A DNA stretch of 54,113 nucleotides from Clostridia bacterium. GTDB lineage: Bacteria > Bacillota > Clostridia > Oscillospirales > CAG-272. The notes under the pieces were generated by a model. The model worked only from the letters and a program-made list of their open reading frames with translations, was not told where the DNA came from and did no database searches. Position 1 is the stretch's first letter. Each line of letters starts with the position of its first letter. A program made the position numbers and the translations under genes. Location: assembly GCA_017456985.1 (NCBI GenBank), contig JAFTIH010000002.1, forward strand, positions 1 to 54,113. Reading direction: 5' to 3'. Positions 21,993-54,113 of the stretch are shown one piece after another.

Positions 21993-22042
21993 ATTTCATT
22001 TTGAAATATTTTATTGCAAAATGAAATATCCCGTGCTATAAT
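21993..22042 (+). promoter_or_regulatory. Promoter and operator of the RM island
   Basis: TTGCAA (22014-22019) and TATAAT (22037-22042) have a 17-bp spacer. A perfect 11-bp inverted repeat, ATTTCATTTTG (21993-22003) and CAAAATGAAAT (22017-22027), overlaps the -35 box. It lies directly before the small XRE regulator gene, so autoregulation is likely. Confidence 0.65.
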
Positions 22043-22081
22043 AAAAACGGTAAATACAATTCTCACATAGGAAGGTGTATT

Positions 22082-22330
22082 ATGGCAGTCAGCTATAAAA
22101 AGCTCTGGAAGCTCCTCATCGAAAAGGATATGAACAAAACCGACCTGCGCCTGAAAGCAGGCATCTCCACCGTCGCCCTCGCCAAGCTCGGGAAGAATGA
22201 GAATGTCAACACCGAGATACTCGTGAAGATCTGCCAAGCGCTGGAGTGCGGGGTAGAAGATATTATGGAGATTTCGCCATCCAATGAGCAAGACCTCGAC
22301 TTTACATCAACCGACCTGTTTGTTGAATAA
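22082..22330 (+). CDS. XRE-family regulator, RM controller-protein-like
   Basis: An 82-residue helix-turn-helix protein consisting of little more than a Cro/C1 domain (LIEKDMNKTDLRLKAGIS, then ICQALECGVEDIMEI). It lies 18 nt before the methylase gene and just after a promoter with an 11-bp inverted repeat, the arrangement of the controller (C) proteins that time restriction-modification expression. AGGAAGG precedes the ATG. Its codon use is more like the chromosome than the AT-rich genes after it. The controller role is inferred. Confidence 0.85.
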   Translation: MAVSYKKLWKLLIEKDMNKTDLRLKAGISTVALAKLGKNENVNTEILVKICQALECGVEDIMEISPSNEQDLDFTSTDLFVE

Positions 22331-22348
22331 ACATAGAAGGAGATTTAT

Positions 22349-23806
22349 ATGAAAGCATCAAAAAGAAGCATTACCGCTGAAAAAGAAAACGGTAGAATAT
22401 ACACCCCTTTGAGCATAGTTGAAAACATCCTTGACTTGTCAGGGTATTATGACAAAAACATTATAAAAAAGCACGCAATCGACAACAGTTGTGGCGACGG
22501 AGCTTTTTTATGTGAGATTATAAAAAGATATTGTGAAGCTTCGCTCGAATTTGGGAATTCTCTATCAGAATTGAGAAATGATCTTCAAACTTATATTCAC
22601 GGCATAGAAATTGATACTATTGAACATCAACGCTGCATTGAAAATGTTAACAAAGTTGCGGCTTCTTTTGGGTTAACCGAGATAGATTGGGATATTATTT
22701 GTGCTGACACCTTAACGATTCATAAATATGACGGCAAAATGGATTTTGTTTTAGGAAATCCACCTTATGTCAGAGTTCATAATTTAGGAGATTCTTTTAG
22801 TGCGATAAAAAGTTTTTCCTTTGCACAAGAGGGAATGACCGATTTATTCATAGTTTTCTACGAACTCGGGATAAAAATGCTTTCTGCCAAAGGAACATTG
22901 GGATATATTACTCCTAGCTCTTTTTTCAATAGTTTAGCGGGAGCGAACATGAGAAAGGCATTTGTCGAAAATCATTATTTGGAAAAAATTGTTGATTTAA
23001 AACATTATCAAGCCTTTTCTGCAACAACATATACAACTATCGTCATTTTAAAAAAATCCAATAGCAAACATCATACGGATTATTATGAATATGACACTAA
23101 AAACGGTATTCCGTACTACGTAGATTCCTTAGAGTCTTCTGATTTTTACATTGGAGGCAATTACTTTTTTGCTCCCAAAAATAATCTTATAATTCTTAAA
23201 AAAGTGTTTTTTAATTATGGAAAATGTGATATAGCAGTCAAAAACGGTTATGCAACTCTTTGTGATACTGTTTTTATCCACGACTTCGACTTTGAATCTG
23301 AATATATCATTCCTGTTGTAAAAGCCTCCAAAGGCACCAAGAAAAAAATATTTTTTCCTTATGGTACAAACGGGAAGCTCATACCCGAAGAGCAAATCAA
23401 AAAAGACTATAAAATGTATGATTATTTGATTAAAAACAAAGGAGCTTTAACACAGAGAAGCCACGAAAAAGGGGATGATCGCTACTGGTATTCTTTTGGC
23501 AGAAGTCAAGCTATCAATGACACATTCAAAAACAAATTAACAATCAATGCAATAATTAGAGATGAACGCGATTTAAAGTTTGTAGAAGCACCTTCTGGAA
23601 CAGGTGTTTACGGTGGGTTATATATTACAAGCGAAACGATTCCTTTTTCTAGTATTATTGAAGCAATAAAATCAAAAGATTTCGTTGATTATATTGCGCT
23701 TTTAGGAAAGTATAAAAGTGGCGGGTATTACACTTTTTCCTCTAAGGAACTCAAAATGTACTTAGATTACAAATTCAATTATGATGGGGGTTTATTAGAA
23801 TGCTAA
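22349..23806 (+). CDS. Type II-like adenine-N6 DNA methyltransferase (Eco57I-type)
   Basis: A 485-residue methyltransferase. Motif I is [13 protein letters not shown] (SAM binding), and the catalytic motif IV is N137-P-P-Y140 in [10 protein letters not shown], typical of adenine-N6 enzymes. A C-terminal half with [16 protein letters not shown] is the probable target-recognition domain. It methylates host DNA against the cognate endonuclease that follows with a 7-nt overlap. The gene is strongly AT-rich compared with the flanking chromosome. AGAAGGAGA precedes the ATG. The target sequence cannot be predicted. Confidence 0.88.
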
Positions 23807-24534
23807 CAAATAAACAATTCTTAGAAGTTATTAGAGAATCTTTTTTCACTTATTTAAAAATTGATACATCTCGTAGCACTGCAAAATTAAAGACGCTGCA
23901 TGGTCATATTGCACAAGACCTACAAGAACTGTTTGGAAAAGACTACACCATCCAATCGCAGGGGTACTCTGATGATAAAGAAGGAGTTATTGATGGACGA
24001 TATTACCCCAAGAATGTCGATATAACAGTTAGTTACAAAGGAAAACCTGTTGCAGGTTATGCCGTGAAGTTTGTAATGCGCAACTATTCTCAAAACAGCA
24101 ACAATTATTTTGAAAACATGTTGGGAGAAACTGCTAACATTAGATCCAATAATATACCTTACTTCCAAATGTTCATTATTTTTGACAAAGTCCCGTACTA
24201 CAAATCAGGAGGGATATTCTCAAAATACGATATAATAACCCAGCACAATCTTGATAAATACTTTGCGTTATCCAAAGACAATCCTGATGCTTTCTACCAT
24301 ACGCCTGACAAAACTTTGCTCGTTTTGCTCACTTTGAAAGAAAAAAGCCCTAATTTTACTTTTGCCTCATCACAGGACTATGCGTCTTATTATATGTCGA
24401 TTATCAAAGATAATGATTTAATTTCCTACTCAACAAAAATCAAAGATACTTTTAATGACAGTGTTGTTTTTAACAATTATGCCGATTTCATACGGAGAAC
24501 TTACTATCTTGTAGAAGGAAAAAGAAAAGCTTAA
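23800..24534 (+). CDS. Probable restriction endonuclease, C-terminus possibly frameshifted
   Basis: A 244-residue AT-rich gene overlapping the methylase by 7 nt. A PD-(D/E)xK-like core is visible: Asp74 in [11 protein letters not shown] and Lys90 in GYAVKFVM, followed by the conserved [20 protein letters not shown] segment. The acidic residue before Lys90 is missing (Ala88), a known variation in such nucleases. Immediately after the stop, a shifted frame reads [19 protein letters not shown] and stops at 24586-24588, ten nt before the next gene. Removing one A from the AAAA run at 24524-24527 would join it, so the intact protein may be about 18 residues longer. Function is inferred from position and core motif. 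Confidence 0.7.
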
Positions 24535-24598
24535 CTCCAATGACATCAACAGCGAAGAATGGACGTTTCTCGAAGAAGCTTTGAAATGAGGTAATATA

Positions 24599-25639
24599 AT
24601 GCAAAAAAAGAAAGCATTTATTTTCGATACAAATTTTATTATCCAAAATCCCAAACTCGATGAAGTAATCGAAAAACTAAAAGACAAGTATGTTATTTAT
24701 GTATCTCAAGTTTCTATTGATGAAAGAATTGCTCAGCAATGTCGCAATCTAAAAGAAAAGTTTGACGAAATAGATAATTGCGCAAACAAATACAGCGATT
24801 ATGTAGAAATGACATTTAAAAGATCTTATGAAAGGGAAGCAGATGCTCTTCGCATTGCAATCCAAGAAAAGTACGCTTTCTTTTTTGAAGATAAAATTAT
24901 TCCTTTTCAAAAAAACAGAAAAATCTTTGAAACTATAATTGATCGTGCAAACAAAAAGGAACCGCCTTTTTCTCGCGAAAAAGAGGCAAGCGACAAAGGC
25001 TTTAAAGATTGTTTGCTTTGGTTATCGCTGTTAGAGTATTTCAAAGACAACGGAGAAGAAGAAATTGTTTTTCTAACAGACGACAAAAAAGCATTTAAAA
25101 ATCATACGGATTTTTTAGTCAAAGAATTTGAAAGAAAAACAGGAAAAACAATTATTTTTTATCCCAATAGTTACTACAAGGAAATGGTAAAACCGAGCAA
25201 CACAACACAGCAACAGGACAATAAAAAAGCAATTATCAAAATAGAAGAATTTAGAGATGAGATTGAAAGCGTTATTGACGCATTAAGAGGGGTAGAGGTA
25301 GAGACTTTTTGGGGCAATTCTCAGTGGTTGCGTACCTTTACCACGCACATTCCCTTTGACACTACATATATCAAAAACTTTTTTATTGAATTACAATCTG
25401 ATATATCTACACATCTTTTTGAAAAGTCTATACCTGCTACAAAAGTGTTAGATTTTGATGGACGACTTTTTGACTGTACTGCAGAAATCCCTCTAAAACA
25501 TCTCGAAAAAGCCCTCGAATTATACCAAAGAGTATTGAATGAATGTCCACAGTATACTGAACAATTTTTTGAAGCAGCAACCAAAATATTAAATCGAAAC
25601 TTTGTCGAAGCAAGCGAAGAGGACGTTTTACCATTTTAA
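24599..25639 (+). CDS. PIN-like domain protein (DUF4935 type), defence-island nuclease candidate
   Basis: A 346-residue protein. The N-terminal half is a PIN-like nuclease domain: FIFDTNFII with Asp10, the central DKGFKDCLLWLSLLEYF and FLTDDKKAF provide the acidic residues expected for metal-dependent RNase activity. The C-terminal half (after about 210) is helical with no match that I recognise. TGAGGT lies just before the start. AT-rich like the two genes before it, and in line with them, so it probably belongs to the same transferred defence module. There is no antitoxin-like partner next to it, so a classical VapC role is unlikely. Confidence 0.75.
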   Translation: MQKKKAFIFDTNFIIQNPKLDEVIEKLKDKYVIYVSQVSIDERIAQQCRNLKEKFDEIDNCANKYSDYVEMTFKRSYEREADALRIAIQEKYAFFFEDKIIPFQKNRKIFETIIDRANKKEPPFSREKEASDKGFKDCLLWLSLLEYFKDNGEEEIVFLTDDKKAFKNHTDFLVKEFERKTGKTIIFYPNSYYKEMVKPSNTTQQQDNKKAIIKIEEFRDEIESVIDALRGVEVETFWGNSQWLRTFTTHIPFDTTYIKNFFIELQSDISTHLFEKSIPATKVLDFDGRLFDCTAEIPLKHLEKALELYQRVLNECPQYTEQFFEAATKILNRNFVEASEEDVLPF

Positions 25640-43972: not shown

Positions 43973-44001
43973 ATTGTATCACATCCGCATTCATTTTTCA
44001 A
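43973..44001 (-). promoter_or_regulatory. Promoter of the AbrB-like gene
   Basis: On the minus strand TTGAAA (44001-43996), 17-bp spacer, TACAAT (43978-43973), about 60 nt before the start codon. Confidence 0.65.
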
Positions 44002-44076
44002 GTACCGAAACGAAAAAAAATGTGAATTTTTTGTCATAATTTCCCATAAACCGTCACAAAAGCCAAAGGAAGTGAA

Positions 44077-44934
44077 ATGATGTCCCTCTCGTCCCTTCTC
44101 CCCCTTCTCCCCGAGGCGCTGTGCCGCGAGGTGCGCACGCATCCCGCCGCGCGCTGCGCGCCGAGCGTCTGCGAGGTGCGCTTGCGGCGGGGGCGCCCCT
44201 CGTCGCTCTCCGTCTTCCGCGACGGCGCCCTATGCAATCTTCCGCTTTCCCATCACGCGAGCGAGGAGGAGCTGACGCAGACCCTCGCGCGTGCCGCCGA
44301 CGGCTCGGTCTATGCTCACGAGGAGAGCTTGCGCGAAGGATTTCTTCCGATGAAGGGGGGCATCCGATTAGGAGTGTGCGGACGGGCGACCCCCGACGGC
44401 GGGGGCGGCATCAAAGCGCTTTCGTCCATCAGCTCTCTCGTCTTTCGCCTGCCCCACGCACATCCCCACGCCGCCGACGAGCTGTGTAATTTCTTTGAAA
44501 AAACACAAGGCGGGATCCTTCTGTTTGCACCGCCGGGCGGGGGCAAGACCACCCATCTGCGCGCCTTCATCCAAGCACTCGGCACGCGCTACCGCATCGC
44601 GGCGGTCGATACGCGCGAGGAGCTTTGCGTTGAGGACGAAGCGCTTTTGCTCGACTGTCTTTCGGGCTATCCCAAGCGCTTGGGCGCCGAGATCGCCCTG
44701 CGTACTCTCTCGCCCGAGATCCTCGTGCTTGACGAGCTTGGCAAGGCGGAGTGCGACGCGCTGTGCGCGCTCGTTTCCTTCGGGGTGCGTACCGTCGCCA
44801 CCGTCCACGCGCAAAGCGCCGACGAGGTGCGGCGCGCCCCCGCCTTTGCCCCTTTGCTCCGCTCGGGGCTCTTTTCCCACCTTTGGGACGTGCGGGGGCG
44901 CCGCCCCTCCCCGCTTTGGGAGGAGAGGGCGTGA
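44077..44934 (+). CDS. spoIIIAA: Stage III sporulation protein AA
   Basis: A 285-residue secretion-type ATPase. Walker A is APPGGGKTTHLRAF, Walker B is PEILVLDELGKAEC, and an RVG-like N-terminus precedes. It powers or assembles the SpoIIIA-SpoIIQ channel from the mother cell. AAAGGAAG precedes the ATG at 44077. It is the first gene of a complete, tightly packed spoIIIAA-AH operon. I did not find a convincing sigma-E promoter in the upstream 166 nt. Confidence 0.95.
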   Translation: MMSLSSLLPLLPEALCREVRTHPAARCAPSVCEVRLRRGRPSSLSVFRDGALCNLPLSHHASEEELTQTLARAADGSVYAHEESLREGFLPMKGGIRLGVCGRATPDGGGGIKALSSISSLVFRLPHAHPHAADELCNFFEKTQGGILLFAPPGGGKTTHLRAFIQALGTRYRIAAVDTREELCVEDEALLLDCLSGYPKRLGAEIALRTLSPEILVLDELGKAECDALCALVSFGVRTVATVHAQSADEVRRAPAFAPLLRSGLFSHLWDVRGRRPSPLWEERA

Positions 44935-45413
44935 CGGGACTGATCGGGGGCGTTTTATGGGCGCTCTTTCTTCTGCTTTTGACCCTTCGTACCGCCGCCG
45001 AGGAAAGGCGCGTTGCAGAAGAGCTTGCGGGGCTTTGCCGTCTGCTTGACGCCCTGCGCGCCGAGCTTGCGGGCGCCTCCCGCCCCCTTCCCGTCTTTTT
45101 TGCGTCCTTCTCGGACGCGGCGCTTGCGGGATGCGGTTTTCTTACCGTTTTGCAAAAGGAGGGGCTGTGCGCCGCGCTACGCTCGCGCACGCTCCATCCG
45201 CGCACCGCACGGGCGGCGCTCCCCATCCTTTCGCCCTTTGCCGACGCGCTCGGGGAGCGCTTATTCAAGGAAGAGTGCCGCGCCGTCGAGGAAGCCCTCT
45301 CGCGCCTGTCCCCCATCGCGCATCGCGCGGCAGAGGATGCGCCACGTCGCGCGCGGCTCGGGGGTGTTCTGACGGTTTCGGGCGGCTTGCTTTTGCTTTT
45401 ACTTTTCATTTAA
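44931..45413 (+). CDS. spoIIIAB: Stage III sporulation protein AB
   Basis: A 160-residue membrane protein of the engulfed-forespore channel. It has one N-terminal membrane segment (GLIGGVLWALFLLLLTL), a helical cytosolic region resembling GspF-like type II secretion platforms, and a C-terminal hydrophobic end (GGLLLLLLFI). The GTG start at 44931 overlaps the spoIIIAA stop (GTGA), and GGAGGAG lies just upstream. A longer in-frame reading to 44751 is a shadow within spoIIIAA. Confidence 0.9.
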   Translation: MTGLIGGVLWALFLLLLTLRTAAEERRVAEELAGLCRLLDALRAELAGASRPLPVFFASFSDAALAGCGFLTVLQKEGLCAALRSRTLHPRTARAALPILSPFADALGERLFKEECRAVEEALSRLSPIAHRAAEDAPRRARLGGVLTVSGGLLLLLLFI

Positions 45414-45429
45414 GAAAGGAGCGTCCTTC

Positions 45430-45624
45430 GTGGATATTTCCCTTATTTTAAAGGTCGCGGGCATCGGGATGCTCGTTTCGGTCAGCTGCCAGATCTTATC
45501 CAAGTCGGGAAAAGACGAGCAGGCGCTGCTTTTGACGCTCACGGGGATGGTCGTGGTGCTTTTGATGCTCGTCGGACAGCTCGGGGACTTGATCAGCACC
45601 CTGCGCGCGGTATTCGGCTTATGA
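45430..45624 (+). CDS. spoIIIAC: Stage III sporulation protein AC
   Basis: A 64-residue membrane protein with two hydrophobic helices (LILKVAGIGMLVSV and LLLTLTGMVVVLLMLVGQ), the exact size and pattern of SpoIIIAC. GTG start with AAAGGAG upstream. Its stop overlaps the spoIIIAD start. Confidence 0.92.
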   Translation: MDISLILKVAGIGMLVSVSCQILSKSGKDEQALLLTLTGMVVVLLMLVGQLGDLISTLRAVFGL

Positions 45625-46001
45625 GCGTCGTGTCCGCCGTGGGTGTGTCCCTTCTTTGCGCGGTCTGCGCGCTCGTTTTGCGAGAATCCAAAAGCCCCGT
45701 TGCCCCCTTACTCTCCCTGCTTGGCGGATTATGCTTGCTTTTGGTCCTCTTCCCACGCCTCGGGGACCTGTTTTCGACGCTCAAAAACACGCTCGGTGCG
45801 CTGGACGGCGCGGGCGTTGAGAGCGTGGGCAAGATCCTTTCCGCCGCCCTGCTCGTCGGGGTGGGGTGCGACGCCTGCACCGAGCTTGGCGCCCCCCATC
45901 TTGCCGCGAAGTTAGATTTCTTCGGCAAGATCGAAATTCTGCTTCTCGCGCTTCCCACGCTTGACGAGCTTCTCTCGCGCGTGACAGCGCTACTCTCGTG
46001 A
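45621..46001 (+). CDS. spoIIIAD: Stage III sporulation protein AD
   Basis: A 126-residue membrane protein paralogous to SpoIIIAC, with membrane helices at both ends and the conserved IEILLLALPTLDELL near the C-terminus. It overlaps spoIIIAC (ATGA) and spoIIIAE (GTGA) at its ends, indicating coupled translation. Confidence 0.92.
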   Translation: MSVVSAVGVSLLCAVCALVLRESKSPVAPLLSLLGGLCLLLVLFPRLGDLFSTLKNTLGALDGAGVESVGKILSAALLVGVGCDACTELGAPHLAAKLDFFGKIEILLLALPTLDELLSRVTALLS

Positions 46002-47137
46002 GACGCCGCGCACTCGTCGGCGCGTTCCTTTTGGCACTTTTGTGGGTGCTTTTTATCCCCGTTTGCGCCAAAGGAACGGAAAGCGCCGCGCAAAACGAAG
46101 CACAAAAGGACCCCCTTACCGCCGCAGAGGACGAAACGCGCGAGGGACTGCTCGCCCTTCTGCCCGATGCGGCAAAAGCAAGGCTCCCCGACCCCACGGA
46201 CGCCGAGGCGGTAGAAGACGCCGTAGGCTTCCGCGCCCTCTTTTCCCTCTTTGCCGACGCCCTCACGGGAAGCGCGGGAGCGCACGCAGGACGCCTTCTT
46301 TCCCTCGTTATGCTCACGCTTGCCTTTTCCGTCGTCCCGCTTTTTTTCGCACGAAGCTCTCCCGTCACCGCGACGGTGCTTGAATGCAGTGCCGCGCTTT
46401 CCGTCTTCGCCCTGCTCTATCCCACGCTCGCGCGCGTGCTGTCCTTTTTTTCGGACTTAAAGGGGCTCTCTCTCGGTCTCTCTCCCATCTTTGTTTCCCT
46501 GCTTGCGGCAGGGGGCGGGACGGCGCAGGCGGGCGCGGCGGGCGCGGGCTTTTCCTCCTTTGCGGCGATGCTCTCTCTTTTCGGGGAGAGCGTCTTCCCG
46601 CCGCTTCTTCGCCTTTTGCTCGCCCTCGCCCTACTCGCGGCGCTCGGCAACTGCACGCTCGTTCGCGAGCTTTCGCGGCGGCTCTCGGGGGTGACGGTGT
46701 TCTTCTTTTCCGTGCTCTCGATGCTCTTTCTCGCCTCGCTCGCCTTTGAAAGCTCGCTGGCGGGGAGCGCCGATTCGGTGGCGCTTCGCACCGTCAAATA
46801 TACCGTTTCCTCTGCCATCCCCGTGGTGGGCTCCACCGTATCGGGCGCCCTCTCGGCGCTCTCCTCCTCACTTTCACTCTTACGGGGCGCGGCGGGCGGA
46901 ACGGCGGTCGTAGCACTGCTTGCGCTGTTGCTTCCACCGCTTGCCGAGGTCTTTCTTTTGCGGCTCGCGCTGTCGCTGTGCGAGAGCGTTTGCGTCTTCA
47001 CGGGTGCAGACCCGATGCGGGGCGTGCTGGGGCGTTTTCGCGGGGTGCTTGACCTTGCCCTCGCCGCCCTTGCCCTGCTCTCGGTGCTCTTTCTCGTCAC
47101 AGTCGGGACCTTTTCCCGCGCGCACGCCGCGCTTTGA
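45998..47137 (+). CDS. spoIIIAE: Stage III sporulation protein AE
   Basis: A 379-residue polytopic membrane protein with a signal-like N-terminus (LVGAFLLALLWVLFIPVCA), a hydrophilic region of about 80 residues, and several membrane helices in the C-terminal half (SVVPLFFARSSPVTATVLEC; YTVSSAIPVVGSTVSGAL is the conserved SpoIIIAE core). It forms part of the mother-cell channel. GTG start overlapping spoIIIAD. Confidence 0.92.
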   Translation: MRRRALVGAFLLALLWVLFIPVCAKGTESAAQNEAQKDPLTAAEDETREGLLALLPDAAKARLPDPTDAEAVEDAVGFRALFSLFADALTGSAGAHAGRLLSLVMLTLAFSVVPLFFARSSPVTATVLECSAALSVFALLYPTLARVLSFFSDLKGLSLGLSPIFVSLLAAGGGTAQAGAAGAGFSSFAAMLSLFGESVFPPLLRLLLALALLAALGNCTLVRELSRRLSGVTVFFFSVLSMLFLASLAFESSLAGSADSVALRTVKYTVSSAIPVVGSTVSGALSALSSSLSLLRGAAGGTAVVALLALLLPPLAEVFLLRLALSLCESVCVFTGADPMRGVLGRFRGVLDLALAALALLSVLFLVTVGTFSRAHAAL

Positions 47138-47193
47138 GGTGATCCGCGCACACCGCGCTTTTTATAAAAGAAAAAGGAAAGGAGGTAATCAAA

Positions 47194-47646
47194 ACGGAAG
47201 CGATCAAAAGCATCTGCATCGGGGCGGCGTGTCTTTCTCTCGTAACGCTCCTACTTCCGGAGCGCGAGGGGGTACGACGCGCGGCGTTGACGGCGTTCTC
47301 ACTCGTCTTTCTCCTCTTCCTTTTGCCAAGCGGCGCGGACTTCTCCTTCCCTTCGCTCTTACCGGGGATAGAGGAGGGCGAAGCGGTGTCGGGAGAGGCG
47401 TACGAGGAAACGGTCAAGCGAGAAACCCTCGCCGCCGTCAAGGCGGACCTTTGCCGCCGCTTTTCCATCGGCAAGGACGCGCTCGCTCTCTCGGGGGAGA
47501 TCACGCTCGACGGGGAGGACTTCGCCATCCGCTCGCTCACCCTGACGCTGTCGGGCACGGGCTTCTTTGCGGACGCGAGCTCGCTTTTGCGCTACGTCGA
47601 AGAAAACTATACCACGCATTGTGAGGTGCATTTCGTTGGATCTTAA
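47194..47646 (+). CDS. spoIIIAF: Stage III sporulation protein AF, non-canonical start
   Basis: A product of about 150 residues with two N-terminal membrane helices (ICIGAACLSLVTLLLPE and AFSLVFLLFLLP) and a soluble C-terminal domain, as in SpoIIIAF. The frame is open from a TGA at 47140, and AAAGGAGG (to 47185) is a strong ribosome binding site, but no ATG, GTG or TTG lies between the stop and 47287. ACG at 47194, 8 nt after GGAGG, is exactly where SpoIIIAF proteins begin (then EAIKSICIG). The next TTG (47287) would delete the first helix. Either ACG is used, or the genome has a T-to-C change or error. Confidence 0.8.
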   Translation, partial: TEAIKSICIGAACLSLVTLLLPEREGVRRAALTAFSLVFLLFLLPSGADFSFPSLLPGIEEGEAVSGEAYEETVKRETLAAVKADLCRRFSIGKDALALSGEITLDGEDFAIRSLTLTLSGTGFFADASSLLRYVEENYTTHCEVHFVGS

Positions 47647-48109
47647 AAAGCTTTTTTCCCGCCTTTCGGGCAACCGCTTGCTCTTTCTCCTTGGCGCCTT
47701 GGGGCTCGTGTTTCTGCTCTTCTCGGGCGTGGGCGGGAAAGCAAAAACCGAGGAGGGGGCGACGGCAATGGCGTGGGCAGAGGCGTACCGCGCCACCCTT
47801 GAGGAAGAGTTAGGCGCCCTTTGCACGCAGGTCGAGGGCGTCGGTGAGGCGCACGTTTTTCTCACGCTCGCCTCGAGCGAGATCGCCGTTTACGAGAAGA
47901 ATCAGAGCGGCGAGAGCGAAACGCTCGCCACCTCGGGGGGCGAAGCGGTGCTCCTTGCCTACCGCCCGCCCGAGATCGCGGGGGTGACCGTCGTTTGTGC
48001 GGGCGGCGACTCTCCCGCCGTCAAGCGGGAGCTGTGCGAGCTGCTTTCCACCGCGCTCGCGGTGGGGGCGTCGCAAATTCATATTGCGCCCCTTGTTCTA
48101 CACGGCTAG
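47636..48109 (+). CDS. spoIIIAG: Stage III sporulation protein AG
   Basis: A 157-residue ring-forming channel protein with one membrane helix (LLFLLGALGLVFLLFSGVG) and an outside ring-building domain ending SQIHIAPLVL. I chose TTG 47636 (DLKKLFSRLSG follows) because GAGGTG lies upstream and the family begins there; it overlaps spoIIIAF by 11 nt. Longer in-frame starts lie within spoIIIAF. Confidence 0.9.
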   Translation: MDLKKLFSRLSGNRLLFLLGALGLVFLLFSGVGGKAKTEEGATAMAWAEAYRATLEEELGALCTQVEGVGEAHVFLTLASSEIAVYEKNQSGESETLATSGGEAVLLAYRPPEIAGVTVVCAGGDSPAVKRELCELLSTALAVGASQIHIAPLVLHG

Positions 48110-48156
48110 GCGCGTGCATAAGATAAAGTGTCAAATCAAGAACGGAGGAAAATCCT

Positions 48157-48705
48157 ATGGCAAAAATCAAATTCAAAGGAGAGGACGGTATCTTCTCCAA
48201 AATCGGTCGCAGAAATCTTTTGATCGTGTGCGCAGTGCTGCTCATCGGCGGCGCGGTCGCCCTCAACTACTTCCTGTTTACGGGCGACGACAAGGTGGAT
48301 TACGACGGCTCGGGAATGACGGACGCAAACCCCGACGACGGCGCCGGCAACACCGCCGACACCTACTTCGCCGCCGCCGAGCTCTCGCGCGATCAGGCAA
48401 GAGATGAAGCACTCGCCGTTTTGCAAACGGTGCTCGCCAGCGAGGACGCGTTAGAGGAAACCAAAAACCAAGCGCTCTCGGACATCTCGCGCATCGCGCT
48501 TGAGATCGAAAAGGAAGCCAACATCGAATCCCTCGTGCGGGCGCGCGGCTTTGAAGAGTGCATCGCCGTCATCAGCGGTGACAACGCAAGCGTCATCGTG
48601 CGCTCGGATGCGGAGCTTCTTGGGAGCCACGTCGCGCAGATCAGCGAGATCGTTTACGAGCAGGCGGGCATTCTCCCCGCAAATCTCAAGATCCTTTGTA
48701 AATAA
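48157..48705 (+). CDS. spoIIIAH: Stage III sporulation protein AH
   Basis: A 182-residue membrane protein, the mother-cell partner of SpoIIQ. A cytosolic N-terminus, one membrane helix (NLLIVCAVLLIGGAVALNYF), an acidic linker and the YscJ-like C-terminal domain (AAAELSRDQARDEALAVLQ... ISEIVYEQAGILPANLKI) are typical. CGGAGG precedes the ATG. Last gene of the operon; a terminator follows at 48720. Confidence 0.93.
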   Translation: MAKIKFKGEDGIFSKIGRRNLLIVCAVLLIGGAVALNYFLFTGDDKVDYDGSGMTDANPDDGAGNTADTYFAAAELSRDQARDEALAVLQTVLASEDALEETKNQALSDISRIALEIEKEANIESLVRARGFEECIAVISGDNASVIVRSDAELLGSHVAQISEIVYEQAGILPANLKILCK

Positions 48706-48719
48706 TTGTTTACATTTTC

Positions 48720-48758
48720 GGGAAAGGGAGTCGAAAAAGGCTCTCTTTCCCTCTTTTT
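48720..48758 (+). terminator. Terminator of the spoIIIA operon
   Basis: GGGAAAGGGAG (48720-48730) pairs with CTCTCTTTCCC (48741-48751) with one mismatch, followed by a T run. Confidence 0.8.
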
Positions 48759-48787
48759 GAAAAAGTAGAAAAAAGTCTTGTTTCATC

Positions 48788-48816
48788 TTGACTTTTTCCC
48801 CTCTTTGTGCTAAAAT
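48788..48816 (+). promoter_or_regulatory. Promoter of asd
   Basis: TTGACT (48788-48793), 17-bp spacer, TAAAAT (48811-48816), 36 nt before the ATG. Confidence 0.7.
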
Positions 48817-48852
48817 AATCGCGTATTCTATATTGATTGAAGGAGTCCCGTT

Positions 48853-49935
48853 ATGGAAAAGCTCAAGGTTGGCATTATCGGCGCGACCGGTATGGTCGGT
48901 CAGCGCTTCATCACGCTGCTTGAAAATCACCCTTATTTTGAGATCACCGCACTCATCGCATCTCCCCGCAGTGCAGGCAAGACCTACGTCGAGGCGGTCG
49001 GCGAGCGCTGGAAGCTTGCCGCTCCTATGCCCGAGTGCGTCAAGGATATGGTCGTCATCTCCTCGGAGGAGGTGGAGCGCGTCGCATCTCTCGTTGACTT
49101 CGTTTTCTGCGCGGTCGATATGAAGAAGCCCGACATCCTCGCCCTGGAAGAGAAGTATGCCAAAGCCGAGGTCCCCGTCGTTTCCAACAACTCTGCAAAC
49201 CGTTGGACGCCCGACGTTCCTATGGTCATTCCCGAGATCAACGACGCGCACCTTGCCGTCATCGACGCACAGCGCAAGCGCCTCGGCACCAAGCGCGGCT
49301 TTATCGCCGTCAAGCCCAACTGCTCCATTCAGAGCTACGTGCCGATGCTCACTCCCCTCTTGAAATTCAAGCCCACCGTCGTCATCGCCACCACCTACCA
49401 GGCGATCAGTGGCGCGGGCAAGACCTTCCGCGAATGGCCCGAAATGATCGACAACGTCATCCCCTTCATCGGCGGTGAAGAGGAAAAGAGCGAGAAGGAG
49501 CCCCTGCGTGTTTGGGGTACCGTAGAGGGCGGCGAGATCGTCCCCGCCAAGTCCCCCATCATCACCTCGCAGTGCATCCGCGTTCCCGTGAGCGACGGTC
49601 ACACCGCGGCAGTCTTCGTCAGCTTTGAAGAGAAGCCCACGAAGGAAGACATTCTCGAGGCGTGGCGCACCTATCGCGGCAAGCCCCAGGAGCTGGGCCT
49701 TCCCTCCGCGCCCGCGCAGTTCATCACCTACTTTGAGGAAGACAACCGTCCCCAAGCAAAGCTCGACCGCGACCTTTACGGCGGTATGGGCGTGTCGGTC
49801 GGCAGACTCCGCGAGGACAGCGTGTACGACTACAAGTTCGTGGGTCTTTCCCACAACACGCTGCGCGGTGCGGCAGGCGGTGCCGTGCTGATCGCCGAGC
49901 TTCTTTACAGAGAAGGCTACATCACCAAGAAATAA
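48853..49935 (+). CDS. asd: Aspartate-semialdehyde dehydrogenase
   Basis: A 360-residue NADPH enzyme making aspartate semialdehyde for lysine, diaminopimelate, threonine and methionine. NADP-binding IIGATGMVGQRF is at the N-terminus and the active-site cysteine is in KPNCSIQ, the form of the archaeal/fungal-like subgroup. The substrate-binding SGAGKTF follows. Diaminopimelate made through it also feeds the spore cortex. Monocistronic: promoter at 48788-48816 and terminator at 49942. Confidence 0.95.
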   Translation: MEKLKVGIIGATGMVGQRFITLLENHPYFEITALIASPRSAGKTYVEAVGERWKLAAPMPECVKDMVVISSEEVERVASLVDFVFCAVDMKKPDILALEEKYAKAEVPVVSNNSANRWTPDVPMVIPEINDAHLAVIDAQRKRLGTKRGFIAVKPNCSIQSYVPMLTPLLKFKPTVVIATTYQAISGAGKTFREWPEMIDNVIPFIGGEEEKSEKEPLRVWGTVEGGEIVPAKSPIITSQCIRVPVSDGHTAAVFVSFEEKPTKEDILEAWRTYRGKPQELGLPSAPAQFITYFEEDNRPQAKLDRDLYGGMGVSVGRLREDSVYDYKFVGLSHNTLRGAAGGAVLIAELLYREGYITKK

Positions 49936-49941
49936 TTTTAA

Positions 49942-49972
49942 AAAGGAAGAATGCCCCGCATTCTTCCTTTTC
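49942..49972 (+). terminator. Terminator of asd
   Basis: AAAGGAAGAATGC (49942-49954) and GCATTCTTCCTTT (49958-49970) form a 13-bp stem with a 3-nt loop and a T-rich tail. Confidence 0.9.
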
Positions 49973-50020
49973 TTTTCGCGTCCGCTTCCAATCGCTGCCG
50001 TCGCTTCCAAGATTTTTGCA

Positions 50021-50049
50021 TTGCAATTATACCACGCATTCGGTATAAT
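50021..50049 (+). promoter_or_regulatory. Promoter with operator-like dyad before the SleB-like gene
   Basis: TTGCAA (50021-50026), 17-bp spacer, TATAAT (50044-50049). The spacer and -10 box are covered by ATTATACC (50026-50033) and GGTATAAT (50042-50049), an 8-bp inverted repeat, which could be a repressor site. Confidence 0.6.
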
Positions 50050-50179
50050 GGAAGCACCGAGGGTTCGGGGGGCTCACGGTGCGCATTTTTTTCTCCTTTC
50101 TTCCCCCTTTTCTTTTAATTCCTTTTTCTTTTCTTGCGCGCCGCCTCCCATCCTCGAGTTTTGACTATGGAGGTTTTCT

Positions 50180-51076
50180 ATGCAAAAAACCAAAACACGA
50201 CGGCGTATGCTCTCCGTGCTTTGCGCCGCGCTCCTCTTTTCGGTCTTCCTTGCGCTCCCCGCAAATGCGGCAACGCTGTCAAGGACACCGGGCAAGGTGT
50301 CAAGCATCGACGCCTGGCGCTACGAGCGCATCCCCATCCACACGGATGACGGCAGACTTGAAACGGATGGCAGGCTCATCGCGGGTACCACCTATCTCCC
50401 CCTGCGCGCCTTCTTCGAGGCGTACGCACCGGATGCCGTGCTTACATACCACGCAAGCATCCGCACCGCAGAGCTACGGGGCAAGGGGCTCACCGTCTCC
50501 GCACGCGACGGCTCGAACCTTCTCTACGCCAACGGCAGGTGTCTTTACAGCGATATGCCCATCAAGATCCTCTCCGACGGCACGATGTACGTTCCCATCC
50601 GCTCGCTCGCCAAGGTCCTCTCGCTTACCGTCTATTGGAGCGAAAAATGGCGCTCCGTCACCCTCTCGGGTACTCCCACACCGCTCGAGGACGGCGCCAC
50701 CTACTACGACGAAGCCGACCTTCATTGGCTCTCGCGGATCATCTCCGCCGAAGCGCGCGGCGAGCCCTTCATCGGGCAGGTCGCCGTGGGCAACGTGGTG
50801 CTCAACCGCACGCGCCATAAGGCGTACCCGAACACCGTCAAGGAGGTCGTCTTCGACCGCCAGGGCGGCGTCGTGCAATTCTCCCCCGTCGCGGACGGCT
50901 CCATCTGGATGACCCCGCACGCCACCTCCGTCACCGCGGCAAAGGTGTGCCTCGAGGGCGACACCGTATCCGAGCGCATCCTCTTCTTCTACGCGCCCAG
51001 TATGGTCACAAGCACCTGGATCGAGCGCAACCGCCCCTATGCGTTCACCATCGCCTCTCATCGGTTTTTCTATTAA
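50180..51076 (+). CDS. SleB/CwlJ-type cell wall hydrolase with copper-amine-oxidase-N domain
   Basis: A 298-residue secreted protein. The signal peptide ends near ANA (LLFSVFLALPANA). Residues 50-160 are a copper-amine-oxidase-like N-terminal (stalk) domain (LIAGTTYLPLRAF, MYVPIRSLAKVL). Residues 175-298 are the SleB hydrolase domain: LSRIISAEARGEPFIGQVAVGNVVLNR with the catalytic glutamate in SAEARG. Such enzymes cut cortex peptidoglycan during germination or vegetative wall turnover. AGGAGG-like sequence is less clear here (TATGGAGG before the ATG). Terminator at 51083. Confidence 0.88.
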   Translation: MQKTKTRRRMLSVLCAALLFSVFLALPANAATLSRTPGKVSSIDAWRYERIPIHTDDGRLETDGRLIAGTTYLPLRAFFEAYAPDAVLTYHASIRTAELRGKGLTVSARDGSNLLYANGRCLYSDMPIKILSDGTMYVPIRSLAKVLSLTVYWSEKWRSVTLSGTPTPLEDGATYYDEADLHWLSRIISAEARGEPFIGQVAVGNVVLNRTRHKAYPNTVKEVVFDRQGGVVQFSPVADGSIWMTPHATSVTAAKVCLEGDTVSERILFFYAPSMVTSTWIERNRPYAFTIASHRFFY

Positions 51077-51082
51077 AAAAAG

Positions 51083-51113
51083 CTTGCCCACCGCAAAAAG
51101 CGGTGGGCAATTT
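51083..51113 (+). terminator. Terminator after the SleB-like gene
   Basis: TTGCCCACCGC (51084-51094) and GCGGTGGGCAA (51100-51110) form an 11-bp stem. Confidence 0.85.
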
Positions 51114-51141
51114 GTATTTCGAAATGCTTTTATATCAATTA

Positions 51142-51214
51142 GCACGAGAGTGCCGTCCTTGTAAGCATAATTATACTCCTTTTTGCCGAAAAAGTCAAGA
51201 GAGCGCACGAGATT
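51142..51214 (-). pseudogene. RHS-repeat gene remnant, copy A
   Basis: The minus strand reads NLVRSLDFFGKKEYNYAYKD, a piece of an RHS core repeat. It is a 73-nt near copy of 52558-52630, and the homology ends abruptly on both sides. It holds a TTGACT-17-TATAAT promoter-like pair (51198-51193 and 51175-51170). With the terminator at 51241-51262 it forms a block of about 130 nt repeated at 52558-52682. Confidence 0.7.
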
Positions 51215-51240
51215 GCTATACCTTTGCGTATATAGAAAAA

Positions 51241-51262
51241 CTCCCCGCCCGAAGGCGGGGAG
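51241..51262 (-). terminator. Terminator of the membrane-protein gene at 51272
   Basis: CTCCCCGCC/GGCGGGGAG stem with a small loop; T run on the minus strand side. Identical in core sequence to 52655-52676. Confidence 0.85.
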
Positions 51263-51271
51263 AAAAATGTT

Positions 51272-51988
51272 TTAAGAGTTTTTAGAATCATCCACTCTTG
51301 GCATTTTTGAATAATCAATTTTAAAGAGGGGGACAAAAGCTCCCTTTCTGTAGCAAAGTATTACCGTTGTTCCTTTCTCAACTAGGCCATAATCTGTATC
51401 AATTGAAAGTTGGTCTATTTGAAAATTTTCGGCTCCTTTTATGTCATACAAATAATGGCGGTCAAAAAATGCACCTTTTAAAGGATCCTCTCCGTTAACT
51501 CGTTCTACGGTAGCTTTTATTTCTATTGCTTGTGACATATCAAAAGTGTAGTTAATTGTTGGAAACACACAAAACCCGATTAGACCTACAGATACCAAAC
51601 AATTTAAAACAAAAAGCCCCAAGAAATCTGCAACCTTCTTCTTTTTTAGAATCAAAAGAAGAGTTGCCGTCAAAAGAATAGCGGTTCCGACTATGGTTAT
51701 CAGCAGTCCCCCCGCGGAGTTTTTCTCTACTACCATAGCATAATTAAAATTCGTACTGTCATTAAACAAAAACACCTGTATGAGAACAGAGCAAGCAAGG
51801 CCGAACGGAAATTCTTTGTGCTTTACAAGGAAAATGCTAAGAACAATTTGTGACAAAAGGGAGAAGCAATAAATTATGCCAAGAACGCAAACCAGCAAAC
51901 GATGGGCTTCAACAGCGTAAGAAACGATGCGACTTGCTACAATTACAAGGATTAAAACAAATTCTAAAGCAAATTTCCCCCTCTTCAC
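51272..51988 (-). CDS. Membrane protein, candidate immunity protein of an RHS module
   Basis: A 238-residue protein unrelated to any family I know. Five or so membrane helices fill the first 165 residues (LEFVLILVIVASRIV; LLVCVLGIIYCFSLLSQIVL; LLITIVGTAILLTATLLLIL; FLGLFVLNCLVSVGLIGFC), followed by an extracytosolic tail with beta strands (GTTVILCYRKGAFVPLFKID). AT-rich. It starts 18 nt after the RHS-tip pseudogene, as an immunity gene follows a polymorphic toxin. The next module has a smaller membrane protein with a similar helix-plus-outside-domain plan. Confidence 0.6.
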   Translation of the reverse strand: MKRGKFALEFVLILVIVASRIVSYAVEAHRLLVCVLGIIYCFSLLSQIVLSIFLVKHKEFPFGLACSVLIQVFLFNDSTNFNYAMVVEKNSAGGLLITIVGTAILLTATLLLILKKKKVADFLGLFVLNCLVSVGLIGFCVFPTINYTFDMSQAIEIKATVERVNGEDPLKGAFFDRHYLYDIKGAENFQIDQLSIDTDYGLVEKGTTVILCYRKGAFVPLFKIDYSKMPRVDDSKNS

Positions 51989-52006
51989 AAAACTCTTCCC
52001 TCCGTT

Positions 52007-52630
52007 TTAAAAAATTTTAATACGATTATCTAATCGATTATCCGTAACTACATCCAATAACAGTGCAAAAATTCCACCTGTAGAAAAGAAGCAAGAGATA
52101 ACATCGACAACATCTTTGTTGCTTGCGCTAACCAATTTGTTTACAAAAGAGTTTATAACGCTAAAGAACCAATTTGTAGCAGAAGAAATTATTCCAGATA
52201 AAGCAATGTATCCTAATCGCCAAACAGTATTGCCGTAAGTGTATGCCTTGCCGTTCTTCGAAAGGATGTTGCCGTAGCCGTCGTAGGTCATCACGTTGAC
52301 AGCCGCGCCGTTCTTGGTCTCCGTCAGAAGCTGTCCCTGTGCGTCGTACGTATATTCCGTCACGCCCTCGGCACTGTCCGTGACCTTGGTGATGCGCTCC
52401 TCGGGGTCGTACTCGTGTAGCCAATGCAACCCCAGATCAAACTTGCTGAAAAGCCGAAAAATTGGCGCCTTTGTTGCGCTTCTCGCTTGAAAAGTCTGCA
52501 CTTTCGTCTTCTGCGTTACGATATCATTCGTAAACTCGACTGCCGCCTCGGTGGCACGCACGAGAGCGCCGTCCTTGTAAGTATAATTATACTCCTTTTC
52601 GCCGACAAAGTCAAGAGAGCGCACGAGATT
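52007..52630 (-). pseudogene. RHS-repeat protein fragment with foreign C-terminal tip
   Basis: Reads RNLVRSLDFVGEKEYNYTYK, then RHS/YD repeats (HEYDPEERITKVTDSAEG; YTYDAQGQLLTETKNG; MTYDGYGNILSKNG). The typical continuation stops after GKAYTYGNTVW and a new hydrophobic tip begins (LGYIALSGIISSATNWFFSV...). A TAG stop lies just before RNLV, so the large N-terminal RHS core is missing. It is best read as an orphan RHS C-terminal cassette, with the toxin tip spliced to a shortened core. The first 73 nt are the same sequence as 51142-51214. A GTG start is possible at 52624. Confidence 0.75.
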
Positions 52631-52654
52631 ACGCTATATTGCAGAGAAAGAAAA

Positions 52655-52676
52655 CTCCCCGCCCGAAGGCGGGGAG
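52655..52676 (-). terminator. Terminator of the membrane-protein gene at 52726
   Basis: The same CTCCCCGCC/GGCGGGGAG hairpin as at 51241-51262. Confidence 0.85.
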
Positions 52677-52725
52677 AAAAACTATTTTTCTTTGATTTCC
52701 ATTTCTCTTTTAAGATTTGAGTGCC

Positions 52726-53124
52726 TTATTCGAGCAATTTATACTCTTTTATTATATGGCTATTGTAAAAGTATTCCACCTCGTAAACTTTTCCTGCTTC
52801 CAAATTTGTTATATCTCGTGTGTAGATTGGTATATATACGTACAATCTACCACCTTCTCCTTCAAAAAAAGCCTTTTGTGTAGCGGGTAACGTATTGCTT
52901 GATTGATAGCTAACGTATTCCGCGACTACAGTATGAGTTTTTTGCAAAAACATATCTTTATAAATAGGTATTTCCAAAATTGTAAGAAGCACTATAAGGC
53001 CTATTAAAAACAATATTCTAAGCACATAAAACTTTGGTTTCTTAATGACATCGTGCACTATAATGCCAATAAAAACTGCATAACAAACAAAAGTTACAGA
53101 AAAAACAAGAAAAATATTTTTCAT
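52726..53124 (-). CDS. Small membrane protein, candidate immunity protein
   Basis: A 132-residue AT-rich protein: two N-terminal membrane helices (IFLVFSVTFVCYAVFIGIIV; YVLRILFLIGLIVLLTIL) and an outside beta-rich domain (GRLYVYIPIYT; AGKVYEVEYFYN). No family recognised. AGGAG precedes the ATG. It starts 15 nt after the short gene at 53140-53382 and ends at a terminator followed by an RHS remnant, the same order as in the neighbouring module. Confidence 0.6.
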   Translation of the reverse strand: MKNIFLVFSVTFVCYAVFIGIIVHDVIKKPKFYVLRILFLIGLIVLLTILEIPIYKDMFLQKTHTVVAEYVSYQSSNTLPATQKAFFEGEGGRLYVYIPIYTRDITNLEAGKVYEVEYFYNSHIIKEYKLLE

Positions 53125-53139
53125 AAAAACTCCTATAAA

Positions 53140-53382
53140 TTATACTGGATACGTTAAAAAAGAGAAAAGAAGCTCAAATACGTCTTCAACAATTTTATCA
53201 GTTGTCTCTTTGTTCTTTTGGTGTTTAGCCATTATATCATACATTTCTGGTTTAGTATAGTCATATCCCTTGCTTCGATAGTAATGTTGATACTGCGAAT
53301 AATTAGGAGCTTTGTTGAAAAATTTTGACGTCAATTTAGAAGTCAACTTAACGAAACTATTTGTTTTGTGATACGATTGCAA
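53140..53382 (-). CDS. Short AT-rich ORF, possible toxin-tip remnant
   Basis: An 80-residue frame (MQSYHKTNSFVKLTSKLTSK, later QYQHYYRSKGYDYTKPEMYD) with no recognised domain. It overlaps the preceding gene by 40 nt, and its start lacks a clear ribosome binding site, so it may be the tail of a broken larger gene. In the module layout it holds the place of the orphan toxin tip before the membrane protein at 52726. Real expression is uncertain. Confidence 0.4.
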   Translation of the reverse strand: MQSYHKTNSFVKLTSKLTSKFFNKAPNYSQYQHYYRSKGYDYTKPEMYDIMAKHQKNKETTDKIVEDVFELLFSFLTYPV

Positions 53383-53747
53383 TTTTTTTTAAAAAACAGC
53401 CAGAATATCGATAAGGAAATAGCTGTCCACAAGATGATCACCACGGGAAGTTCTTCTGCCGCTTCAATCAATATTGTTAAAAGTGCTATGATGCCACAGG
53501 TGGCTAAATATAGTGACAGTAGCAAGTTATCAATTTTTCGAAGATAGAACTTTAATCCAATAATATGTCCTTGTTTTGTAACACATCTCACCATGGGATG
53601 AAGAAAAGCTTTTGTCCAAAACAATTCTTCGTGAAACATAAACGATCCATCAGAAAAATCATATATATGCATGTTATTATCAGCTAAATCCAATTTGAAT
53701 TGATGAATTGAATGCGTTGTATTAATTGATATTTCGTGCTTAAACAT
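53343..53747 (-). CDS. Hypothetical protein with C-terminal membrane hairpin
   Basis: A 134-residue protein. The chosen start (MFKHEISINTTHSIHQFKLD, ATG 53747) has GGAGAG upstream; an earlier ATG at 53822 lacks one. A soluble N-terminal part of about 75 residues is followed by two membrane helices (LSLYLATCGIIALLTIL; LPVVIILWTAISLSIFWLFF) and a basic end. AT-rich, no family recognised. It may be another immunity or effector part of the RHS locus. A minus-strand promoter lies at 53966-53995. Confidence 0.6.
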   Translation of the reverse strand: MFKHEISINTTHSIHQFKLDLADNNMHIYDFSDGSFMFHEELFWTKAFLHPMVRCVTKQGHIIGLKFYLRKIDNLLLSLYLATCGIIALLTILIEAAEELPVVIILWTAISLSIFWLFFKKNCNRITKQIVSLS

Positions 53748-53965
53748 AACTCTCTCCTCGAAATCCCATCTTGTCAGTTTGAGGTATTGTGAATTTTGTG
53801 AGTTGCTGATATTACTTTCCAATGAATTTTTTTAGGCAAGAAGGCGATCGCAAAACATTAGATAAAGCCAGCCTTGATTCTTGAGCGCGAAACAAAACAA
53901 GTTTTTTTATTTTTTATGCTCTTCGAGATGCTTTTCAAAACTGTTTTTTCTCGTTTACATACTAT

Positions 53966-53995
53966 ATTTTAACACAAGCGCGCCCGTGTTGTCAA
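53966..53995 (-). promoter_or_regulatory. Promoter of the AT-rich cassette
   Basis: On the minus strand TTGACA (53995-53990), an 18-bp spacer and TAAAAT (53971-53966), about 210 nt before the start at 53747. Apart from this and the terminator at 54084, I see nothing in the 366 nt up to the window end. Confidence 0.55.
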
Positions 53996-54083
53996 GAGAT
54001 GAATAACCGCCCTCGGCAAGATCGAAAAGGTTTATTTCCCACATTAGCCTTTATCAAATTCTCCTTTATGTTTACCAACAAAA

Positions 54084-54107
54084 ACGGACCGCACAGGGCG
54101 GTCCGCA
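54084..54107 (-). terminator. Terminator of a gene beyond the right edge
   Basis: CGGACCGC (54085-54092) and GCGGTCCG (54098-54105); on the minus strand TTTTTG follows. It should end a minus-strand gene that lies outside the window. Confidence 0.75.
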
Positions 54108-54113
54108 AAACTA

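Follow-up and report, generated by a model that had tools for sequence, protein, structure and literature searches.

Promoter matches within the RHS remnants that head a probable array of decayed orphan RHS tip/immunity modules in a Clostridia bacterium

In Gram-negative bacteria, as far as the accessible text of the reports goes, orphan rhs-CT/rhsI and cdiA-CT/cdiI modules mostly lack a translation start while their immunity genes can be expressed (Poole 2011, PMC3150448), orphan tips recombine onto the main rhs gene (PMC3967940), and the main and orphan rhs genes of Salmonella have internal promoters, P2A and P2B, with P2-like sequences reported also in E. coli, Shigella, Pseudomonas and Erwinia (PMC7043789). 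Here we analyze one end of a 54,113-base contig of a Clostridia bacterium (contig C11 of its assembly, taken entire and hereafter called the window), where RHS fragments and small membrane-protein genes form an array that reaches the contig edge. By analogy, the locus appears to be a spore-former variant of these orphan modules and internal promoters. It is probably an array of orphan RHS tip/immunity modules in decay, each forming its own transcription unit headed by a promoter-bearing RHS remnant.

Like the orphan modules described previously (PMC3150448, accessible part), those of the window have tip fragments without the N-terminal delivery part, with small genes next to them, and lie in an array; they differ in belonging to a spore-former, in having units that end in a hairpin of their own and start with a promoter match in or next to an RHS remnant, in their truncated tips and in that one unit is empty. 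The likeness to P2A and P2B of Salmonella, which drive the C-terminal toxin/immunity part independently, lies in a promoter match within RHS core DNA common to main gene and orphan. Unlike Salmonella P2, which according to the text available starts 89 nucleotides (nt) upstream of the PxxxxDPxGL motif (PMC7043789), the sites considered here are at distances of 0.2 to 2 kb from the ends of long open reading frames (ORFs), four of the 26 ORFs being cut at a contig end; moreover, they use at least three RHS motifs and are known in silico only. The site in the host's own long RHS gene does not have the 89-nt position. WapA/WapI of Bacillus subtilis, compared by description, is also a spore-former RHS-repeat toxin with the immunity gene immediately downstream; one of the sources lists wapA-wapI as an operon, and the accessible portions of all four mention no internal promoter (PMC8849057, PMC5717166, PMC6562991, PMC8321402). 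Orphan immunity proteins of acquired defence in Bacteroidales are likewise kept without toxins, theirs answering effectors of the type VI secretion system (PMC10470768, as far as accessible). A limited search of the open-access literature, partly accessible, found no case of an internal rhs promoter in Gram-positives, which is not a claim of absence from print. We know of no toxin-gene promoters at the Bacteroidales orphan immunity genes.

On the minus strand the elements follow the order T1-P1-134 aa-80 aa-132 aa-T2-P2-RHS fragment/tip end-238 aa-T3-P3-T4 (table 1). An earlier note on this DNA had described two minus-strand blocks of the same order, with an identical hairpin and a 73-nt remnant, and this description is borne out: the two 73-nt copies (direct repeat D1, remnants 2 and 3 of table 1) are 95% identical, a second direct repeat holding the CTCCCCGCC hairpin (D3, 31 nt, 51237-51267 and 52651-52681) is 100% identical, and the stops of the 80-residue ORF and of the tip ORF are followed after 15 and 18 nt by the 132- and 238-residue genes, respectively. 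Because the copies have nearly equal spacing, 1416 nt for D1 and 1414 nt for D3, the repeated unit is the terminator plus the remnant, about 125 nt; module 2, which contains the RHS fragment, is thus flanked by direct repeats of a terminator-plus-promoter unit, with an empty unit alongside. The lower 73-nt remnant is RHS-derived (blastn, 83% over 53 nt, E 6.8e-8), as the earlier note had it, and carries a promoter match. Beyond that note, a third RHS remnant (remnant 1 of table 1) lies near the contig edge, and all three remnants contain a sigma-A type promoter match.

Scanning of 50,900-54,113 against the consensus gave 15 promoter-like sites versus 8.0 expected (standard deviation 3.0), of which P1, P2 and P3 are the top three with 11/12 each, and seven terminator-like sites versus 2.8 expected (standard deviation 1.7). 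A terminator-like site lies 35 to 90 nt upstream of each of P1, P2 and P3. TTGACN followed by TATAAT at a distance of 16 to 18 bases is present at four places in the whole window (54,113 bases), two of them within the array. Since each remnant has a promoter match and each match follows a terminator, the array would consist of three insulated transcription units with predicted promoters, two containing small membrane-protein genes and one, from P3 to T4, in which no gene is visible. The P1 motif is present also in the host's own long RHS gene, so that its -35 and -10 hexamers lie in core DNA common to main gene and orphan; no main-gene copy of P2/P3 was seen in the host genome.

Table 1. Features of the array and its left border, with positions in the window
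Feature	Position	Strand	Evidence
Cell-wall hydrolase gene (PF07486), left border of array	50180..51076	+	Pfam match, relatives compared
T4, terminator-like on both strands, between array and hydrolase gene	51084..51110	both	scan
RHS remnant 3, head of empty unit	51142..51214	-	direct repeat, RHS match
P3, TTGACT-17-TATAAT; no gene seen ahead of next terminator	51170..51198	-	consensus scan
T3, hairpin terminator	51241..51262	-	identical to T2
238-residue membrane protein (immunity candidate) with ribosome site GGAGG, four hydrophobic stretches and C-terminal domain	51272..51988	-	
Last ~75 residues of toxin tip	52010..52240	-	36% over 73 residues to C end of 2221-residue G213 RHS protein
RHS C-terminal core fragment, two internal losses versus 537-residue orphan frame of G005	52241..52624	-	profile and tblastx matches
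Dispersed repeat, in frame at first loss	52415..52497	-	copies in G019 and G024
RHS remnant 2 (NLVRSLDFVGEKEYNYTYKDG)	52558..52630	-	direct repeat, RHS match
P2, TTGACT-17-TATAAT, within RHS remnant 2	52586..52614	-	consensus scan
T2, hairpin terminator CTCCCCGCC	52655..52676	-	identical to T3
132-residue protein (immunity candidate) with ribosome site AGGAG, two hydrophobic stretches followed by small domain	52726..53124	-	
80-residue ORF without ribosome site; possible toxin-tip remnant (weak)	53140..53382	-	no convincing relative
134-residue ORF, two hydrophobic stretches, ribosome site GAGGAG; candidate orphan immunity protein	53343..53747	-	ORF, no family
RHS core remnant 1 (LDNTGALVLKY)	53959..53996	-	95% identical over 38 nt to long RHS gene on C5
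P1, TTGACA-18-TAAAAT, TG ahead of second hexamer	53966..53995	-	shared with G009 and long C5 gene
T1, intrinsic-terminator-like hairpin at contig edge, would close upstream unit	54084..54106	-	9 pairs then T run

The toxin part of module 2 is worn. The RHS identity of 52010-52624 is given by profile matches (Pfam RHS_repeat, E 8e-8; NCBIfam YD_repeat_2x, E 2.8e-10) and by tblastx comparison with the RHS fragment of the relative G005 (E 5.6e-27). Its 205-residue ORF starts in the core, without the N-terminal delivery part, and joins the core fragment to a variable C-terminal tip that is truncated. As the second loss with respect to G005 falls after GNTVW and the following tail matches the last residues of the RHS protein of G213, which belongs to another family, this tail reads as the C end of a tip, with core lost before it, rather than a tip fused at the usual place. 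The tip remainder has one hydrophobic stretch, is named by no profile of Pfam, NCBIfam or PHROGs, and a search for its homologues in phages led nowhere. The dispersed repeat of about 80 nt, in frame within the RHS code, can encode a peptide insert (QARSATKAPIFRLF...) and has copies at one place in G019 and at four in G024 (L010 1510-1561; L012, L018, L021, L022).

The earlier note's identification of orphan RHS C-terminal modules is supported by the long RHS ORF and further tip loci elsewhere in the host genome (see below), by the RHS core domain found in 29 of the 69 genus genomes, the host's own included, and by the module array of the relative G002. To score promoter matches at orphan boundaries we used 49 sequences of the genus containing 37 orphan RHS fragments with at least 250 nt visible upstream, a boundary being positive if the interval from -200 to +150 around the 5' boundary of the fragment holds a site scoring 11/12 or better. 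Fragments with less upstream sequence were dropped (22 from the genus and 12 from the order set), and RHS intervals longer than 3 kb were classed as long genes (16 and 11, respectively). P1 and P3 of the window do not count among the 37, their surroundings having yielded no RHS interval of 60 nt, and the genus set leaves out a few weakly matching cores (G015:C4, G035, G064:C43, G089). Eighteen of the 37 boundaries are positive, or 17 with cut windows, for which the antisense control gave 0/37 and dinucleotide shuffles a mean of 0.26 (maximum 3 in 100 rounds); the background rate of sites is 3.2% in random windows of the same loci and 2.4% inside long RHS genes. The positives come from 8 of 16 genomes and comprise 14 distinct promoter sequences. 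Strong terminators are present at 15/37 boundaries (antisense 1; random 6.8%), and terminator and promoter match occur together at 11/37.

Two relatives present a similar layout. G005 mirrors the window, with orphan genes, a hairpin, a promoter match and then the 537-residue RHS frame running through the core end into a tip; the RHS frame has a stop codon at the -35 element, and the promoter match is 12/12. In G002 (L091, G002:C5), eight or more RHS tip/immunity modules stand in tandem, and near-identical terminator-promoter pieces head some of them. All eight heads bear TTGACA-17-TATACT or TTGACA-18-TAAAAT, at six of them inside a core piece (DLDNL[SG]E.WYT), and the core end in another reading frame comes next in five of these six. 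This array would be a good locus for studying cassette exchange. In a third relative (G009:C1, L054 245-505), an RHS gene is broken after LDSNGNIVVKYSM by about 200 nt containing, by eye, two short hairpins with T runs, and about 25 nt beyond the RHS code are common to the window at P1. The idea that the remnants represent a general dispersed promoter element was rejected, given that the non-RHS extension of P1 occurs in only 2/69 genomes, both times at RHS remnants. At the other loci matched by P2/P3 (L003, L004, L014-L016, L019, L020) the promoter stretch alone is common, with no RHS code by eye, and a 41-nt match in G004 (L013), which by eye belongs to a ParB-like gene, was discarded as chance likeness. 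An Rfam search gave nothing near gathering score.

Promoter matches are found also inside long RHS genes. Among 26 long RHS ORFs, of which the sequence edge cuts four at the 3' end and nine at the 5' end, 13 sense sites score 11/12 or better, including one at a start codon; shuffling of synonymous codons gave 2.4 (maximum 6 of 100), and antisense sites number 0 versus 1.83 expected. All 12 internal sites are confined to the 3'-terminal 2100 nt of the visible ORF, for which same-segment synonymous shuffles gave 1.3 (maximum 3 of 40 rounds); perfect sites in this segment number 6 versus 0.1 expected, with 0 antisense, whereas the rest of the ORFs has one site versus 0.98 in shuffles. The excess is seen both in the genus subset (16 ORFs, 7 sites versus 1.1, maximum 4) and in the subset from outside the genus (10 ORFs, 5 versus 1.1, maximum 4). 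Codon choice in the 3' part of RHS genes thus yields promoter matches more often than synonymous shuffling. The internal sites fall on YDxLDR[IV]....YN or YT in six ORFs (G065, G005, G017, G054, G245, G212), on LDxTxxxxVKY or VQY in three (the host's own on C5, G018, G004) and on KEYNY in one (G212), two other sites lying elsewhere. Orphan heads use the same motifs: G002 has the first, P1, G009 and G061 the second, and P2, P3, G005 and G212 the third. RHS copies with a VYSxxGTKLVSY-like stretch replacing LDxTxxxxVKY score 8 or less in 16 of the 21 copies listed. The site of the C5 gene begins 217 nt before the visible ORF end, still in the core.

Several results weigh against reading the remnants as dedicated promoters of immunity units. 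No promoter match is present at 20/37 genus boundaries; in the host genome one of two scored fragments is positive, that of contig C37 being negative; the single G002 array supplies 8/18 (or 7/17) of the positives; and in several relatives the match lies beside, not in, the RHS code. Since the genes and modules are homologous, these counts do not represent independent events, and they are given here as counts, not as probabilities. A start site heading a unit after a terminator is, furthermore, expected for any gene, and at the threshold of 10/12 the excess in long ORFs shrinks to 37 versus 17.3 (maximum 30), with 7 antisense sites. In 30 regions from 24 genomes of other genera (contigs with at least two cores among the matches listed, same thresholds), only 7/75 boundaries are positive, in five genomes, the antisense control giving 1/75 and 50 rounds of shuffling 0.84 (maximum 3), and terminators occur at 11/75 (antisense 4; random 3.1%). 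The promoter pattern at orphan heads is therefore largely a trait of this genus. Within module 2, AAGGA precedes an in-frame GTG (52561) of the RHS fragment, and the tip remnant might therefore be translated. Finally, no family assigns an immunity function to the membrane proteins of the window, as detailed below.

Weighing these points, we still hold the array of promoter-headed orphan modules to be the probable reading, with the following mechanism. Internal promoters in the 3' part of long RHS genes would allow the immunity gene to be transcribed without the long toxin gene, and breaks upstream of such a promoter during tip displacement would leave a self-contained unit. Each module would start just past the previous terminator with a piece of RHS core, kept because it holds a sigma-A promoter; the transcript would then pass the truncated, poorly translated tip remnant into the small membrane-protein gene or genes and stop at the next hairpin. 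The membrane proteins would most likely confer immunity against sibling or neighbour RHS toxins. Once the unit exists, tip decay would be costless, with promoter, immunity gene and terminator persisting, presumably through selection for immunity. Between the terminator-promoter direct repeats around module 2, one recombination could remove the module and leave an empty unit like the third. More tentatively, the RHS genes of these spore-formers may be dual-coded, in that 3' YD-repeat stretches (YDxLDR[IV]....YN; LDxTxxxxVKY; KEYNYxY) would be held by codon choice as sigma-A promoters expressing the immunity gene apart from the toxin, and the terminator-plus-promoter repeats would act as cassette borders that allow insulated immunity cassettes to be acquired, lost or emptied, as in module 2 of the window.

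Among the alternatives, the array might be a silent arsenal, storing toxin/immunity pairs for recombining a tip onto a full-length RHS gene through shared RHS DNA, with incidental promoters. Orphan-to-main recombination of this kind has been shown in Salmonella (PMC3967940, accessible part), the modules have RHS remnants and terminators in common, and some of the G002 modules retain long open tips. We nevertheless judge this explanation unlikely, considering that no complete tip was recognized within the window, that blastn homology with the long C5 gene amounts to just 38 nt plus short weaker pieces, and that the codon choice of the long genes gives promoter matches more often than expected from synonymous shuffles.

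The three small membrane-protein genes have strong ribosome sites, and their 134-, 132- and 238-residue products are immunity candidates by position only. Consistent with the earlier note, which knew no named family for these proteins or the tip, the three proteins have no useful match in Pfam, NCBIfam or PHROGs. The 238-residue protein is found in one of the 69 genus genomes, namely its own, and among 295 genomes of the order shows one other likeness, of 25% identity over 100 residues in the C-terminal part; this lone distant relative adjoins a FeoB-like gene (named by eye), away from RHS, and matches DUF2500 (PF10694) weakly (E 0.0015, below cut-off), whereas the window protein itself has no Pfam match at gathering level. 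The earlier note had regarded a wide occurrence of such membrane proteins without an RHS tip as a sign against its reading; a location away from RHS is seen in that single relative. Searches for further homologues of the 238-residue protein led nowhere in plasmids and gave one chance-like archaeal match in genome contigs. The 132- and 134-residue proteins were compared with families and with ORFs of the fetched loci; for the former, phmmer gave a likeness (0.0024), judged too weak, to a G364 ORF whose region contains RHS. The 80-residue ORF has matches at E 0.003-0.005 only, to seemingly unrelated proteins.

In the earlier note, the hydrophobic character of these parts had suggested a membrane-acting toxin class with multi-helix membrane immunity proteins, which would be compatible with the array of promoter-headed modules. 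The hydrophobic stretch of the tip remainder agrees with this proposal, as does the intact G213 tip, a relative of the tail of module 2, which has two hydrophobic stretches and is followed, right past the stop of the RHS protein, by a 64-residue ORF with two more (L131 1708-1902, G213:C11). The window, however, keeps only the C end of its tip and offers no family match, the 64-residue ORF scores no better than shuffles against the 238-, 132- and 134-residue proteins and has no clear ribosome site of its own within the 27 bases examined, and the one relative of the 238-residue protein, a single case, sits by a FeoB-like gene and not by RHS. We judge such a class improbable for this locus. An S8-protease-like ORF (named by eye) comes next after the 64-residue ORF in G213.

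Least probable is plain decay, in which dead RHS debris would carry promoter-like sites as chance by-products of the YD-repeat amino-acid pattern next to unrelated passenger proteins: the internal losses, the dispersed repeat, the empty unit and the solitary 238-residue relative, with none nearer in the 69 genus and 295 order genomes, would fit it, but the antisense and synonymous-shuffle controls, the intact ORFs with strong ribosome sites and the similar layout in G005 and G002 speak against it.

The assembly of the host comprises 1.80 Mb in 49 contigs and is 93.6% complete. Matches to stage III sporulation proteins AC, AD and AE at 45,430-47,134, of which AC is above its cut-off and AD and AE are below theirs, indicate that the host probably belongs to a spore-former lineage. 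The array region is AT-rich, its GC (guanine plus cytosine) content being 0.32-0.42 from 51,001 onward versus 0.54-0.65 across 44,001-51,000; another AT-rich island is found at about 22000-25500 of the window (GC about 0.33, flanks roughly 0.48-0.60). The hydrolase bordering the array is 78% and 76% identical to those of the two nearest relatives, G019 and G018, in which, as in five more of ten relatives examined (7/10), the next gene is of phosphoribosyltransferase type, directly adjacent and without an intervening RHS array; the name of that gene was given by eye on the strength of a VDDVIST motif, only VDDV being visible in one case, and the locus was not resolved in the other 3/10. The array therefore looks, most simply, like an insertion in this species beside the hydrolase gene.

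Elsewhere in the same genome, a long RHS ORF of 1409 residues, open at the contig end, lies on contig C5, and further tip loci on C37 and C43. A full RHS gene upstream of the modules, as proposed in the earlier note, would have to lie beyond the contig edge at which the window ends, the long ORF seen being on another contig. RHS core DNA ends all three of these contigs; C37 and C43 open with the same core end and continue with differing tips and differing downstream genes. An exact match of 46 nt joins window 52288-52333 to 16467-16512 of C37 (G000:C37), where the copy is out of the RHS frame, beside an alaS-like gene (named by eye), and looks like a recombination scar or assembly join. An ORF of C5 (L023:3759-4103) was once guessed to be LSm-like, a guess dropped as Pfam identifies DUF6897.

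If the reading of promoter-headed orphan modules is true, the leftover of a toxin gene would itself be the promoter that keeps orphan immunity genes expressed once they are cut off from that gene, and the internal rhs promoters demonstrated in Salmonella would extend to a spore-former lineage. It would also yield a codon-level signature for which any RHS gene could be screened, and would account for the persistence of short RHS remnants of a fixed kind next to these genes.

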